39,616 bases of DNA from Verrucomicrobiota bacterium (GTDB lineage: Bacteria; Verrucomicrobiota; Verrucomicrobiia; Verrucomicrobiales; Akkermansiaceae), in the NCBI GenBank assembly GCA_027619375.1, contig JAQCFL010000008.1, positions 1-39,616 on the forward strand. Reading direction: 5' to 3'. Positions 30,046-38,372 of the stretch are shown here, piece after piece. Every line of letters starts with the position of its first letter. Position 1 is the stretch's first letter. The notes beneath the pieces were generated by a model. The model saw only the letters and a program-made list of their open reading frames with translations. It searched no databases and was not told where the DNA came from. The position numbers and the translations under genes are program-made.

Positions 30046-30291
30046 ATGGTTTCTCTTCGACTCACACGCAAAGGTACTAAGGACCGCCCCTTCTATAAGA
30101 TTGTGGCTATTGACTCTCGCAAGCGCCGTGATGGCCGCTTCATCGAACAACTCGGAGTTTACGACCCCATGCAAGAGGGCGTGAACTACAAGGTCGATCT
30201 TGAAGCTGCTGACAAGTGGCTCGGCTGCGGTGCCCGTCCCTCGGTCACCGTCGCCAGCATCATCAAGAAGGCCCGCAGCGCCGCTGCCTAG
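30046..30291 (+). CDS. rpsP: 30S ribosomal protein bS16
   Basis: '[42 protein letters not shown]'. Confidence 0.95.
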
Positions 30292-30897: not shown

Positions 30898-31299
30898 TCA
30901 ACCTTTCAACCGTTTGAACCCGGACAGCTTCGCTGCCCCTTGGTCGAAGGTATAAGTCACCTCCGCTCCCACTGACGCGTTGCGCTGTGCGATCAACGCG
31001 TCGGCAAAGTCTCCTCCCTGCTCTTGATAAATTCGCAGCGCCCGGCGCACACAGCCGTTGTCTTCCAGTTCGAACTCCGCAGTCTTCAGCAATTGCGTCA
31101 GGACAGTCGCAATCTCCTCCCGGGTGTACTTGTACCCGCGAGCCAAAACCCACACGAGTTCGCAGAGCACAATCACCCCTATCCAACCTTGGTCTTCCGC
31201 CGTGCAATTCTTCTTCAGAAATCGCTCCGCCGCAGGAGATTGCTTCGGATCATCGCCGGTGAGAAACCGCACCAGGATATTGGTATCGATTCCAGTCAT
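30898..31299 (-). CDS. PIN-domain toxin (VapC-like)
   Basis: 'MTGIDTNILVRFLTGDDPKQ'…'GGDFADALIAQRN'; 4-bp overlap with antitoxin gene. Confidence 0.85.
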   Translation of the reverse strand: MTGIDTNILVRFLTGDDPKQSPAAERFLKKNCTAEDQGWIGVIVLCELVWVLARGYKYTREEIATVLTQLLKTAEFELEDNGCVRRALRIYQEQGGDFADALIAQRNASVGAEVTYTFDQGAAKLSGFKRLKG

Positions 31300-31529
31300 G
31301 CCTCTCCGCCTTGGCCAATGGCCTCATCCATTTCTGCGATACTCAAGCTTCTCGGCGGCTTCGGGAGCAGGCCCTTGAGATCCGCGAGCGTTCCACCAAC
31401 CACTTCCACCATCAACCGCCCCTCGGCATCCAGATGAAAATCCAGCTTGTCGCCCTCATGCAGTCCGATCGCTTCCCGGAGCCCCGCCGGGATCGTGACC
31501 TGCCCCTTGCTGGTAATGGTCGTCGTCAT
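31296..31529 (-). CDS. AbrB/MazE-family antitoxin (VapB-like)
   Basis: 'MTTTITSKGQVTIPAGLREAIGLHEGDKLDFHLDAEGRLMVE'. Confidence 0.88.
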   Translation of the reverse strand: MTTTITSKGQVTIPAGLREAIGLHEGDKLDFHLDAEGRLMVEVVGGTLADLKGLLPKPPRSLSIAEMDEAIGQGGEA

Positions 31530-31808: not shown

Positions 31809-32462
31809 ATGAACAAGTATATAGTGGAACTGATCGCGACCTTCTTTCTCGTTCTCATCATCGGCCTCGCCGCCGTTCTCGGCCTGGCCGGGCCCTTCGC
31901 TCCCCTCGCCATCGGCCTCGGCTTGGTCGTGCTTGTTTACATGGGCGGCCACGTCTCAGGAGCCCACTACAACCCCGCCGTCACCCTCGGCATCTTCATC
32001 CGTGGCCGCTGCAAGGGCAGGGAGGTCCTGCCCTACATCCTCGCCGAACTCCTCGGCGCGGTGCTGGCGGCCTTGGTCGTGAAAAACATCTTCGCCGGCC
32101 ACGTGCAGGTCGATGGCAAGGCCGCCGAAATCACCCTCTGGGCCGCCGGAGCCACCGGCCCCGTCATCGCCTCCGAGTCCCTCTTCACCTTCCTCCTCGT
32201 CTTCGTCATCCTCAACGTGGCCACCGCCAAAGGCACCGCCAACAACCAATACTACGGCCTCGCCATCGGATTCACCGTCCTCGTCGGCGTCACCACCGTC
32301 GGCAGCGTCTCCCCCGGCGCATTTAACCCGGCCGCCACGGTGGGACTCGCCCTGATGGGCAAAATGGCCTGGGCCGACACTTGGATGCACTTTCTCCCGC
32401 AGGCCCTGGGTGGCGTTCTCGCCGCCTTCGCCTTCAAAGGCCTCTATCCGGAGGACAAGTAG
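31809..32462 (+). CDS. MIP-family aquaporin next to the arsenic resistance genes
   Basis: 'HYNPAVTLGIF' and 'AFNPAATVGLA' NPA motifs; start chosen at MNKYIVELIATFFLV, not the longer ORF start at 31611. Confidence 0.9.
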   Translation: MNKYIVELIATFFLVLIIGLAAVLGLAGPFAPLAIGLGLVVLVYMGGHVSGAHYNPAVTLGIFIRGRCKGREVLPYILAELLGAVLAALVVKNIFAGHVQVDGKAAEITLWAAGATGPVIASESLFTFLLVFVILNVATAKGTANNQYYGLAIGFTVLVGVTTVGSVSPGAFNPAATVGLALMGKMAWADTWMHFLPQALGGVLAAFAFKGLYPEDK

Positions 32463-32537
32463 AGCTGCCCGACTCCCCTCCTCCCTCCCCGGAAACGCGA
32501 ATCATCGAAAAATAGGATTGACCACCCACCCCGCCAT

Positions 32538-32561
32538 ATAATTCCATATTTCTGGAATTAT
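32538..32561. promoter_or_regulatory. Candidate ArsR operator
   Basis: Perfect 9-bp dyad ATAATTCCA-TATTTC-TGGAATTAT overlapping the arsR ATG (32560). Confidence 0.6.
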
Positions 32562-32889
32562 GAAAATTATCGATGCTGTTTCAGCCCTCGGGGCCCTCGC
32601 CCAACCGGCTCGCTTGAAGATCTTCCGGCTGCTGGTGAAAAGCAGTGGAGAGGGCACTTGTGCAGGCGATCTCGCCAAGCGCTTCGGTCTCCCCAAACCG
32701 ACTCTTTCCTTCCACCTGAAGGATTTGGTGAACGCCGGATTGATCGAGTCCTGCCGGGACGGTCGTTCCATCATCTACCGCCTGCGTCCGAGCGGCATGC
32801 GGCAGCTGATGACCTTTCTGACCGAGGACTGCTGCCAGGGGCGTCCGGAACTGTGTCTGCCTGAGAAGTGCGGAACCGCAGGATGCTAG
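32560..32889 (+). CDS. arsR: ArsR-family transcriptional regulator with Cys-rich C-terminus
   Basis: wHTH '[14 protein letters not shown]…[21 protein letters not shown]'; C-terminal '[22 protein letters not shown]'; arsenic operon context. Confidence 0.9.
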
Positions 32890-32905: not shown

Positions 32906-33922
32906 ATGAGCATTCGAATCGGAATCAATGGCTTCGGCCGGATGGGACGCCTCGGATTTCGAGCGGCCTGGGATCGGGGCGATCTGGAAATCGTGCACGT
33001 CAACGAGCTCCACGGCGGCCCTGAAACGGCCGCACACTTGCTCGAGTTCGATACGGTCCACGGAACCTGGGATCGGAGCATCGTCGCCGGAGACGATTGC
33101 CTTGAGGTCTCCGGGAAGCGGGTCGGCTACAGCACCAAAGCCACTCCGGGCGAAGTCGATTGGGCCTCGATGGGCATCGACATTGTCGTCGAGAGTTCGG
33201 GGCAATTCCGCACACCCGAAACCCTGCAACCCTACTTCGACGGCGGCGTTGCGAAGGTCGTCGTCGCCGCTCCCGTGAAGGAAGGTGCCCTCAATGTCGT
33301 CATGGGTTGCAATGACCACCTCTACGACCCCGCAAAACACCATCTCCTCACGGCCGCCTCCTGCACAACAAACTGCATCGCCCCCGTCGTGAAGGTGATG
33401 CACGGAAAGATCGGCATCAAACACGGCATGATCACAACCCTCCACGATGTCACCAATACCCAGGTCATCGTTGACGCACCCCACAAGGATCTCCGGCGGG
33501 CCCGGTCCGCCCTCAACTCCCTCATTCCGACGACAACAGGATCCGCTACGGCGATCACGATGATTTATCCCGAACTGAAAGGGAAACTCAATGGCGTCGC
33601 GGTCCGCGTTCCGGTCTTGAATGCGAGCCTGACCGACTGCGTCTTCGAGATGGATCGACCGGTCACCGTGGAAGAAGTGAATGGACTGCTCAAAGAGGCC
33701 TCCGAAACCGATCTGCGGGGCATCCTCGGCTATGAGGAACGCCCTCTGGTGTCGACCGACTACGTGAATGACCCGCGTTCCGGCATCGTGGATGCGGCCT
33801 CCACCATGGTGAACGACGAAACGCAGGTGAAACTCCTGGTCTGGTATGACAACGAAGTCGGCTACGCCTGCCGGATGATGGAGCTGGTAAGCAAGGTCGC
33901 GGCAAGCTTGCCGAAGGCCTGA
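32906..33922 (+). CDS. ArsJ-associated glyceraldehyde-3-phosphate dehydrogenase
   Basis: '[20 protein letters not shown]', catalytic '[15 protein letters not shown]', '[16 protein letters not shown]'; immediately upstream of arsJ. Confidence 0.92.
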
Positions 33923-33934
33923 CCACGCAACTCG

Positions 33935-35191
33935 ATGAACGCTCGAAACTACGGAATTGTCACGGCAGCCTACTGGGGATTCACCCTCACGGATGGTGCT
34001 CTGCGCATGCTTGTGCTGCTGCATTTCCACACCCTCGGCTACTCCCCGGTGCAGCTGGCCCTCCTGTTCCTGCTCTACGAATTTTTCGGCATCGTCACCA
34101 ACCTGTTCGGTGGCTGGATTGGGTCCCGCATGGGCTTGAAGATCACCCTCTTCGCAGGCCTGGCCACTCAGATCGCCGCCCTGACGATGCTGTCGTTCGT
34201 CCAACCCGAATGGGTGGCCGTGGTATCGGTGGCCTACGTGATGGCCGCCCAGTCGCTTTCCGGGATCGCCAAAGATCTCACCAAGATGAGTTCGAAGAGC
34301 GCGGTGAAGCTTCTCGTTCCAAGCACAGGCCAGGAACCGCCTTCCTCGGAGCAACAGTTGTTCAAGTGGGTGGCGATCCTCACGGGATCGAAGAATGCCC
34401 TGAAAGGTGTCGGCTTTCTGCTGGGCGGCCTCCTCCTGGGGTGGATCGGCTTCGCCCCTTCGCTGTGGCTGATGGCGGGGGGACTCGCCATCATTCTCTT
34501 CGCCGGAATGATTTTGCTGAAGCAAGACCTCGGCAAGTCGAAGAAGAAGGTGAAGTTCTCGCAACTATTCTCCAAGAGTCGCGAGATCAACATCCTCTCA
34601 ACGGCACGCTTCTTCCTCTTCGGTTCCCGCGACATCTGGTTCGTGGTCGCCCTGCCGGTCTTCCTCAAGGACGCCTTGGGTTGGAGCTTCGCCAGCGTGG
34701 GAGCCTTCATGGCTGCCTGGGTGATCGGCTATGGATTCGTCCAGGCGTTCGCGCCGTCATTTGTGAGACGCAGCGGCGCTGATGCTGGAGCCCGGGCAGC
34801 CCTGCTCTGGGGGTTTTCGCTGGTGATTGTGACGGCCGCCATCGCCACTGCGGTCCACTTCGACTATCATCCCACCACCTCCGTCCTCCTCGGCCTCGCC
34901 GTCTTCGGCATTGTGTTCGCCGTGAATTCCGCAGTGCATTCCTACCTGATCCTCGCCTACACCGACGCTGACGAAGTGGCACTCAATGTGGGCTTCTACT
35001 ATATGGCGAATGCTTGCGGCCGTCTGGTCGGCACACTTCTTTCCGGCCTCCTCTACTTGACGGCCGGCCTTCCCGGATGCCTCTGGACCAGCGCCGCGTT
35101 CACCCTCATGGCGGCCGTTCTCACCATCAAGCTGCCGCGCTTGCCCGCGGCCATCCCCCCGTTGCACAAACCCACTGATCCCGCACCATGA
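33935..35191 (+). CDS. arsJ: Organoarsenical efflux MFS transporter ArsJ
   Basis: '[51 protein letters not shown]'; follows the GAPDH gene. Confidence 0.9.
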
Positions 35192-36285
35192 GTCTGAATA
35201 CCAAATCAATGAGCATCTTCGAACGGCATCTCTCGGTGTGGGTCGGGATCTGCATCCTCGTGGGCATCGGCCTGGGCAAGCTGGCCCCCGGCCTCGCCGA
35301 GTCGCTCGACGGCATGTCCATCTATGTGGACGACGCCCCGGTGGTCTCGATTCCCATCGCCATCTGCCTCTTCTTCATGATGTATCCGATCATGGCCAAG
35401 ATCGACTTTCGCGAGGTCGTCAAGGCGAGTCGGAACCCCAAACCCGTCATCCTGACCTTGATCGTGAACTGGGCCATCAAGCCCTTCACGATGCTGGCCA
35501 TCGCCACGCTGTTTCTCGGCGTCTTCTTCAAGGATCTCCTGCCTGGATCGGAGATCGTGAAGGACGGCAGCGAAGTGGAACTTTATCGATCCTACATCTC
35601 GGGCGCGATTCTTCTGGGGATCGCCCCCTGCACGGCCATGGTGCTGGTCTGGAGCCACCTCGCCAAAGGAAACCAGGGACTCACCCTCGTCATGGTGGCC
35701 ATCAATTCCCTCACCATGCTCTTCCTCTACGGAATGATCGGCGGTTGGTTGCTTGGGATCAACCACATGCCCGTGCCATGGCAGGCACTGCTATTGTCAG
35801 TATCCATCTATGTGGCCCTCCCGCTGATCGCCGGCTATTTTTCCCGGATGTGGATCGTGAACACCAAGGGGGAGGAATGGTTCACCGAAAAATTTTTACA
35901 CGTGCTCACCCCGGTCTCCATCATGGCTTTGCTGGCCACCCTCGTCCTGCTCTTCAGCTTCAAAGGCGAGACAATTCTGGCCAACCCGCTGACCATCCTT
36001 TGGATCGCCATCCCGCTCACCTTGCAAACCTTGCTGATATTCGGCCTCACCTATGGCTTGGCCAGGCTGCTGAACTTCTCCTACGAGGACGCCGCCCCCT
36101 CGGCCATGATTGGGGCCTCCAACCACTTTGAGGTCGCCATCGCGACCGCTGTCATGCTCTTTGGCCTCTCTTCCGGGGCCGCCCTCGCCACCGTGATCGG
36201 CGTCCTCATCGAGGTTCCCCTGATGCTGTTTCTCGTCCGATTCTGCCAACGGACCCGACCTTGGTTTTCCGATGAGAAGAGTTAG
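35188..36285 (+). CDS. acr3: ACR3-family arsenite efflux transporter
   Basis: '[23 protein letters not shown]', '[37 protein letters not shown]'; 4-bp overlap with arsJ. Confidence 0.93.
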
Positions 36286-36348
36286 CCATACCGGCTCAAC
36301 GCATTCCATCAGCCCTACGCTCCCCTCCCTCCCCCCAAACCCGGGCGC

Positions 36349-36486
36349 ATGGGCAAGATGCACTGGGCCGACACCTGGATGCATTTCCTCCCCCAGGCCC
36401 TCGGTGAAGTCCTCGCCGCCTTCGCCTTCAAGGGACTCTATTATCCGCAGGACAAATTAGACTCCCCAACGATGCACCAAATGTGA
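36349..36486 (+). pseudogene. Truncated 3' remnant of a second aquaporin gene
   Basis: MGKMHWADTWMHFLPQALGEVLAAFAFKGLYYPQDK… vs MGKMAWADTWMHFLPQALGGVLAAFAFKGLYPEDK at the end of the intact aquaporin. Confidence 0.88.
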
Positions 36487-36502: not shown

Positions 36503-36641
36503 GGCATTCCGTCATCCCCCTGGCCCGTCGGACTTTCTGCGGGTTGATAATCTCAAACTTGAGAAGGAATAGTCTGGTCAGATCCCGTCAGTGTGACGAA
36601 ATCGCCACACAATTCCCGCTGCCGCGGCCCTCACCACAAGC

Positions 36642-38372
36642 ATGACGACCTTCCTCCAAATTCTCGGATCCCTCGGCATCTTCCTCTTCGGCATGAAGGT
36701 CATGTCAGAGGGCGTGCAGAAGCTCGCCGGAGCCCGCATGCGCCGCGCCCTCGCCTCGGTCACCAAGAACCGCGTCAGCGGCGTCCTCACCGGCCTCTTC
36801 ACCACCGGCCTCGTCCAATCCTCCTCCGCCACCACCGTCCTCGTCGTCTCCCTCGTCAACGCCGGTCTCCTCACCCTCACCGAATCCATCGGCGTCGTCA
36901 TGGGCGCCAACCTCGGCACCACCCTCACCGCCTGGATCGTCGCCACCATCGGCAAATTCAGCCTCGCCAAGATCGCCATCCCCATCATCGGCATCGGCTT
37001 CCCCATCTTCTTCATCGCCAAAAACAATGGCAAGGCCCTCGGCGAGTTCCTCATCGGCTTCGGACTCCTCTTCCTCGGCCTCGACTTTCTCAAGGACTCC
37101 GTCCCCGACCTCAAGACCCTCGTCGTCGAAGACCCCGCCACCGCCGCCCATATCCAGTCCTGGATCGAGTTCTTTAGCGGCAAGGGCTACTTCTCCTACG
37201 TCCTCTTCCTCATCGGCGGCATCATCCTCACCCTCATGGTGCAGTCCTCCTCCGCCGCCATGGCCATCACCATCACCTGCGCCATCAACGGCTGGTTCGG
37301 TGACGATCCCTTCGAGGTCTTCAGAATCTCCGCCGCCGTCGTCCTCGGCGAAAACATCGGCACCACCATCACCGCCTGGCTCGCCGCCCTCGGCGCTAAC
37401 CGTAACGCCAAACGAGCCGCGCGGGCCCACCTCCTCTTCAACGTCATCGGCGTCATCTGGATGCTCGTCTTCTTCCTCGGCTTCACCTCCTTGGTCTGGC
37501 AGATCACCCAACACCTCCCCGACAGCCTCCGCACCGTGAAGGGTGACTTCCAAAAGAGCGAGGTCGCCTTCGCCACCGCCATCTTCCACACCAGCTTCAA
37601 CTTCATCAACATCCTCCTCCTCATCTGGTTCGTCCCCCAGATCGCCAAAATCGTCCAGCGATGGATTCCCGACAAAGGCACCGAATCCGCCCGACCCCGC
37701 CTCCGCTACATCTCCCAGAACCTCGTCGATCTCGGCGAACTCAACATCGTCGAGGCCGAAAACGCCATCCGCCTCATGTCCCATAACTGCGACAAGATGT
37801 TCAAGGGCTTCGTCGATGTCTTCCAACACCCCAAGGAGGACCTCTCCGCATCGGTCTCCGCCCTCAAGAAAATGGAGGAGGAGGCCGACGAGATGATGCA
37901 CGACATCACCGAATACCTCGTGCAATGCTCCACCCGCGAGATCGGACCGACCCACGCCACGAACATCGCCCGGATGATCCGCATCGTCGCCGAACTTGAG
38001 GAATGCACGGACCGCATCTACCGCCTCGTGAAACTCGTGCAGCGCAAATACAACAAGAACCGCGAGTTCTCCGAGGAACAAATCAATGGCGTCCTCGAAA
38101 TGACCACCGTCGTCGGCCAATCCCTCAGCGTCGCCGACAACTTTCTCCTCCGACCCGTCCCCTCCGATGTCATCGGCTCCGTGCACACCCTCGAGGAACG
38201 ATCCGACAAACTGCGCAAGTCCTACAACAAGGAGGCCATGCGCCGCATGGCCGGCGGCGACATCCAGGTCGAGATGCTCTACACGGACATCAACAACCAC
38301 CTCGAGGCGATCGCCAACCACGCCCTCAACATCATCCAGGAAAGCTCCGGCATCGCCCAATCAAGAGGCTGA
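36642..38372 (+). CDS. Na/Pi cotransporter family protein with C-terminal PhoU-like domain
   Basis: 'GSLGIFLFGMKVMSEGVQKLAGARMRRAL', repeated 'QSSSATTVLVVSLVNAGLL' and 'QSSSAAMAITITCAINGW' motifs; helical C-terminus. Confidence 0.93.
   Translation: MTTFLQILGSLGIFLFGMKVMSEGVQKLAGARMRRALASVTKNRVSGVLTGLFTTGLVQSSSATTVLVVSLVNAGLLTLTESIGVVMGANLGTTLTAWIVATIGKFSLAKIAIPIIGIGFPIFFIAKNNGKALGEFLIGFGLLFLGLDFLKDSVPDLKTLVVEDPATAAHIQSWIEFFSGKGYFSYVLFLIGGIILTLMVQSSSAAMAITITCAINGWFGDDPFEVFRISAAVVLGENIGTTITAWLAALGANRNAKRAARAHLLFNVIGVIWMLVFFLGFTSLVWQITQHLPDSLRTVKGDFQKSEVAFATAIFHTSFNFINILLLIWFVPQIAKIVQRWIPDKGTESARPRLRYISQNLVDLGELNIVEAENAIRLMSHNCDKMFKGFVDVFQHPKEDLSASVSALKKMEEEADEMMHDITEYLVQCSTREIGPTHATNIARMIRIVAELEECTDRIYRLVKLVQRKYNKNREFSEEQINGVLEMTTVVGQSLSVADNFLLRPVPSDVIGSVHTLEERSDKLRKSYNKEAMRRMAGGDIQVEMLYTDINNHLEAIANHALNIIQESSGIAQSRG

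Follow-up and report, generated by a model that had tools for sequence, protein, structure and literature searches.

A 3′ aquaporin remnant that probably marks the right edge of an acquired arsenic cassette in a Verrucomicrobiota genome

Introduction

Gene displacement that leaves the old 3′ end behind has been described for effector loci (PMC5361080). In Vibrio type VI effector-immunity arrays and in Rhs loci, the module that comes in takes the place of the resident gene, whose former 3′ end is pushed downstream, and the mechanism proposed for these loci combines homology on one side with an illegitimate join on the other (PMC5361080). Arsenic resistance operons are a separate matter. A glyceraldehyde-3-phosphate dehydrogenase (GAPDH) together with ArsJ is reported to export arsenate as 1-arseno-3-phosphoglycerate, and Acr3 exports arsenite (PMC6205960, PMC9454679). 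In Sinorhizobium meliloti an aquaporin-family channel gene, aqpS, adjoins the ars genes (PMC9454679).

The locus described here brings these elements together: an intact aquaporin gene, an arsR-GAPDH-arsJ-acr3 cassette and the 3′ end of a second aquaporin. It lies in a 39,616-nucleotide stretch of a Verrucomicrobiota genome (contig JAQCFL010000008.1), referred to throughout as the window. Gene order was compared with G035 and G025, two genomes of one genus in the same family, and with G007, the only other genome of the window's own genus that was compared.

The arsenic cassette and its surroundings

The order in the window is rpsP, a putative vapBC pair, aquaporin, arsR-GAPDH-arsJ-acr3, the aquaporin remnant and a Na/Pi cotransporter gene (Table 1). 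The perfect inverted repeat over the arsR start, ATAATTCCA-TATTTC-TGGAATTAT (32538-32561), is unique in the window, where none would be expected by chance, and is probably the ArsR operator. Third-position GC content (GC3) is 0.70-0.81 in the ars genes, 0.86 in the aquaporin and 0.88 in the Na/Pi gene, as imported genes might show, GC3 being a weak marker. Within the intact aquaporin, C-ending codons are far more frequent in the middle part (32133-32312; up to 0.89) than at the two ends.

Table 1. Features of the rpsP-Na/Pi region, in window coordinates
Feature	Position	Strand	Evidence or remark
rpsP (ribosomal protein S16)	30046..30291	+	left anchor; identity 87.5% (G007), 75% (G035), 81% (G025); upstream neighbour conserved
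putative vapBC toxin-antitoxin pair	30898..31529	-	PIN-like vapC 30898-31299; AbrB-type vapB 31296-31529
intact aquaporin, MIP family, 217 aa	31809..32462	+	Pfam MIP, 109 bits; same post-rpsP position in G035 and G025
left repeat copy, last 35 aquaporin codons	32355..32459	+	repeat search, codon alignment
pyrimidine tract past aquaporin stop	32467..32499	+	weak likeness to 36312-36343
perfect 9-bp inverted repeat, candidate ArsR operator	32538..32561	+	overlaps arsR start codon
arsR	32560..32889	+	HTH_5 / HTH_metalloreg
ArsJ-associated GAPDH	32906..33922	+	NF033735, 551.8 bits (cut-off 450)
arsJ	33935..35191	+	NF033734, 588.3 bits (cut-off 400)
acr3	35188..36285	+	TIGR00832, 384 bits (cut-off 282.8)
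pyrimidine tract before remnant	36312..36343	+	weak likeness to 32467-32499
aquaporin 3′ remnant	36349..36456	+	36 codons with TAT; read-through ORF to 36486
conserved element upstream of Na/Pi gene	36574..36604	+	26/31 identical to G007; 0/500 shuffles as good
Na/Pi cotransporter with PhoU domain	36642..38372	+	right anchor; 78% identical in G007, directly after rpsP there

G007 also carries an acr3 (locus L034, on the 2-kb contig C76), 84% identical, whose neighbour is another ArsR-like protein, of 122 aa. The G007 genome yielded no arsJ, and the setting of acr3 thus varies within the genus.

The antitoxin of the putative vapBC pair has an AbrB match; its partner, called vapC by inspection only, has no NCBIfam match. 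The pair occupies the place, between rpsP and the aquaporin, of a LOG-like gene in G035 and G025, and was not found near rpsP in G007, G035 or G025. No LOG-like gene was found elsewhere in the window's genome or in G007.

The aquaporin remnant

The 36 codons at 36349-36456 (forward strand), one of them an inserted TAT (Tyr), are homologous to the 35 codons before the stop of the intact aquaporin (32355-32459). In a repeat search within the window, 32355-32447 and 36349-36441 matched over 93 nt at 86% DNA identity; the longest run without a mismatch is 20 bp, and homology with scattered mismatches lies on both sides of it. A protein query of the whole genome returned two aquaporin matches only, the intact gene and the remnant (E=1.8e-14), and a DNA search of the genome gave the remnant E=3.5e-26; the match is therefore not due to chance. 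The remnant keeps 35 of the 217 aquaporin codons and lacks the first 182. Its original stop has gone (GAC AAG TAG in the intact gene, GAC AAA TTA GAC in the remnant) and, because the aquaporin stop is out of frame or gone, the frame stays open to 36486 by chance read-through. Partial homology to a gene, a lost stop, an indel and a missing start region are the marks of a pseudogene, and the segment is almost certainly what remains of a second aquaporin gene. Most likely it was left as an inert scar when the arsenic genes were inserted, and it probably does nothing today.

The original prediction, drawn from the window's letters, had an orphan aquaporin 3′ fragment downstream of acr3, and the genome search bears this out. 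Its codon-by-codon match is real and starts at 36349 as proposed, but extends over 35 aquaporin codons and not about 32, and the end that it gave, 36486, is that of the chance ORF and not of the homology. The expected three or so non-synonymous codons and one extra Tyr were recovered, as was a start about 60 bp after the acr3 stop (63 bp by measurement, acr3 ending at 36285). The cassette does lie between direct repeats of aquaporin 3′ ends about 4 kb apart (3994 bp, start to start). In contrast, its suggestion that the cassette could be lost or gained by recombination between these repeats is not supported. In bacteria, RecA-dependent recombination needs a stretch of perfect identity to begin, its length being put at up to 30 bp, and mismatches are a further hindrance (PMC8918686); since the longest identical run here is 20 bp, homologous excision is unlikely.

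Divergence of the two copies

Between the remnant and the intact 3′ end, there are ten synonymous codon differences and three non-synonymous ones (A>H, G>E, E>Q), giving dS 0.79, dN 0.056 and dN/dS 0.07 (Nei-Gojobori). Such a share of synonymous changes (10 of 15) would be improbable if both copies were neutral (p=1.4e-4), or if one were neutral for the entire time and the other constrained (p=0.01). Therefore, most of the divergence arose while both were working genes, in agreement with the earlier proposal of a paralogue under purifying selection before its 5′ part was lost. Three changes belong to the remnant side, namely A>H, the additional Tyr and the loss of the stop, the G035 and G025 aquaporins keeping the intact state, and G>E falls at a position where all compared aquaporins have G or A. 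Together these changes would fit, as expected, a later phase of decay.

Which copy is the older resident can be approached through the relatives. The remnant has 71% and 70% of codons identical to the G035 and G025 aquaporins, the intact 3′ end 48% and 52%, a contrast that, on these small numbers, falls short of significance (Fisher p 0.14 and 0.34). Seven of eight polarisable synonymous changes fall on the intact side, the remnant agreeing with G035 or G025 (p 0.035, one-sided), although codon bias is a confounder that could yield the same lean. On codon comparison the balance thus leans towards the remnant being the end of the old resident gene, the intact one having arrived with the cassette. 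A chimeric intact gene, its 3′ end alone imported with the cassette, was also considered and set aside: the last part of the gene has a lower C3, but the remnant is much alike (0.61 vs 0.58).

Comparison with relatives

In G035 and G025 the order is rlmI-like gene, MKLPW-type protein, rpsP, LOG-like gene, aquaporin, the last being 62% and 61% identical to the intact aquaporin of the window. With this gene just downstream of rpsP in both, the aquaporin belongs to the locus. In G007 the order is rlmI-like, MKLPW, rpsP, Na/Pi transporter. The 328-bp spacer between the last two holds no trace of an aquaporin and no ars genes, and G007 may itself have lost the aquaporin. Homology with G007 is detectable no further left than the element at 36574-36604, placing the right junction between 36457 and 36573. 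The flanks 3′ of the aquaporin have no homology with G035 or G025.

The arsR-GAPDH-arsJ genes occur free of aquaporin in many genomes of the order, and in the 13 related cassettes that were inspected no aquaporin lies close by. Starting from aquaporins, an acr3 homologue was found in the flanks of three of 80 loci (L108, L117 and L153, in the last of these 7.5 kb away). No donor with an aquaporin beside this cassette was found, and plasmid records held no aquaporin above 52% identity.

Origin of the locus

The arsenic cassette is probably an insertion whose right edge the remnant marks, because rpsP and the Na/Pi gene are adjacent in G007 and arsR-GAPDH-arsJ is free of aquaporin across the order. 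An insertion or deletion scar had been suggested as a possibility at this place, and the gene order in G007 and the 13 aquaporin-free cassettes uphold a scar at the edge of the cassette. The preferred reading, to which we give a probability of about 0.6, is that the segment is a second aquaporin's 3′ end, no longer functional, which marks the right edge of an acquired ars cassette and was left there by displacement. For the displacement step taken by itself, which we infer, the odds seem slightly favourable. The incoming DNA would have carried the arsenic genes together with a homologous aquaporin or its 3′ end, and would have joined the locus by homology at one border and by an illegitimate join at the opposite one. 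This would have stranded the 3′ end of the displaced aquaporin between acr3 and the Na/Pi gene, where it may afterwards have lost its stop, gained a codon and taken on amino-acid changes.

Could the two copies instead descend from tandem paralogues, two aquaporins in a row between which the cassette came to lie, the second losing its 5′ part in the insertion or through a deletion afterwards? That both evolved under constraint agrees with such a history, and so does the weak likeness between the pyrimidine tracts after the intact stop and before the remnant, as if a single spacer had been split. However, no tandem aquaporins occur at the locus in G035, G025 or G007, and the synonymous changes seem unequally divided between the copies. 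The two C/T-rich tracts, just inside the cassette borders, align locally with p ~0.005 (dinucleotide shuffles), a value to be read with their low complexity and post hoc discovery in mind; such tracts have six matches in the 4.08-Mb genome, their likeness is possibly chance, and they were rejected as a flanking direct repeat. Tandem paralogy is thus unlikely, though well short of negligible. Quite improbable is a site-specific integration into the aquaporin 3′ end, in which the element would have supplied the gene with a new 3′ end, the former one coming to lie at the element's far border. Such elements do show this succession of intact gene, cassette and old 3′ end, and a 20-bp identical core is common to both copies, but the homology continues beyond this core on both sides, unlike simple att sites. 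Moreover, domain and profile searches of the genes in the block recognised no recombinase, the block lacks any tRNA or Rfam RNA, third-position make-up is equal in the remnant and the intact 3′ end, and no such structure occurs at the 13 other ars cassettes.

An assembly artefact, by chimeric joining, might be suspected in a draft of 466 contigs that is 84% complete, yet both flanks match the gene order of G007 and the identical run of at most 20 bases is below usual assembly k-mers, so that a mis-join would be unexpected; we regard it as very improbable. Hardly credible at all is a short functional ORF derived from the last aquaporin helix, even with a frame of 45 codons from ATG to stop and a low dN/dS. 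The low ratio is accounted for by selection on the complete gene prior to truncation, inspection shows no ribosome-binding site ahead of the ATG, and the original stop is lost. A conserved short ORF with its own start, which would have spoken against a remnant, was absent from 188 family genomes, where the other matches are C-terminal ends of full aquaporins, bar one very weak match to a 51-codon frame in G066 (39%, E=0.0056). Nor does the fragment recur elsewhere: a family-wide search returned only the aquaporin 3′ ends of G035 and G025 and short, chance-like matches. It is conceivable, if very doubtful, that the aquaporin 3′ end is a recurrent landing site, with cassettes carrying a homologous aquaporin end and repeated turnover at the rpsP-aquaporin locus.

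Comparison with known systems

The remnant itself is a routine genomic scar of a well-known kind, ordinary in bacterial genomes and of local interest. It gives the insertion an orientation, the arsenic cassette having entered a pre-existing aquaporin locus, and for this reason the aquaporin is not to be read as an arsenic gene from its neighbours. As in AqpS-type operons, an aquaporin stands beside ars genes. Differently to these, it lies upstream of the probable arsR operator, its nearest relatives stand beside rpsP without ars genes, and no aquaporin is co-inherited with the ars genes in the 13 related cassettes. The position upstream of the operator and the ars-free, rpsP-linked relatives make the adjacency probably incidental. 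By gene order, the aquaporin appears as a resident of the locus in relatives, outside the cassette.

In gene content, order and curated family scores, the cassette is like known arsR-GAPDH-arsJ(-acr3) operons; unlike these, it has an aquaporin on one side and an aquaporin remnant on the other. For its arrangement, the nearest counterparts are the Vibrio type VI and Rhs loci. The present locus differs from them in that the gene is an aquaporin, the cargo is an arsenic cassette and a single event is seen. As at a displacement locus, relatives have a resident gene at the corresponding site, here the aquaporin downstream of rpsP in G035 and G025, and the mechanism proposed for those loci, one-sided homology with an illegitimate join (PMC5361080), is the one that would have stranded the old aquaporin end downstream of acr3.
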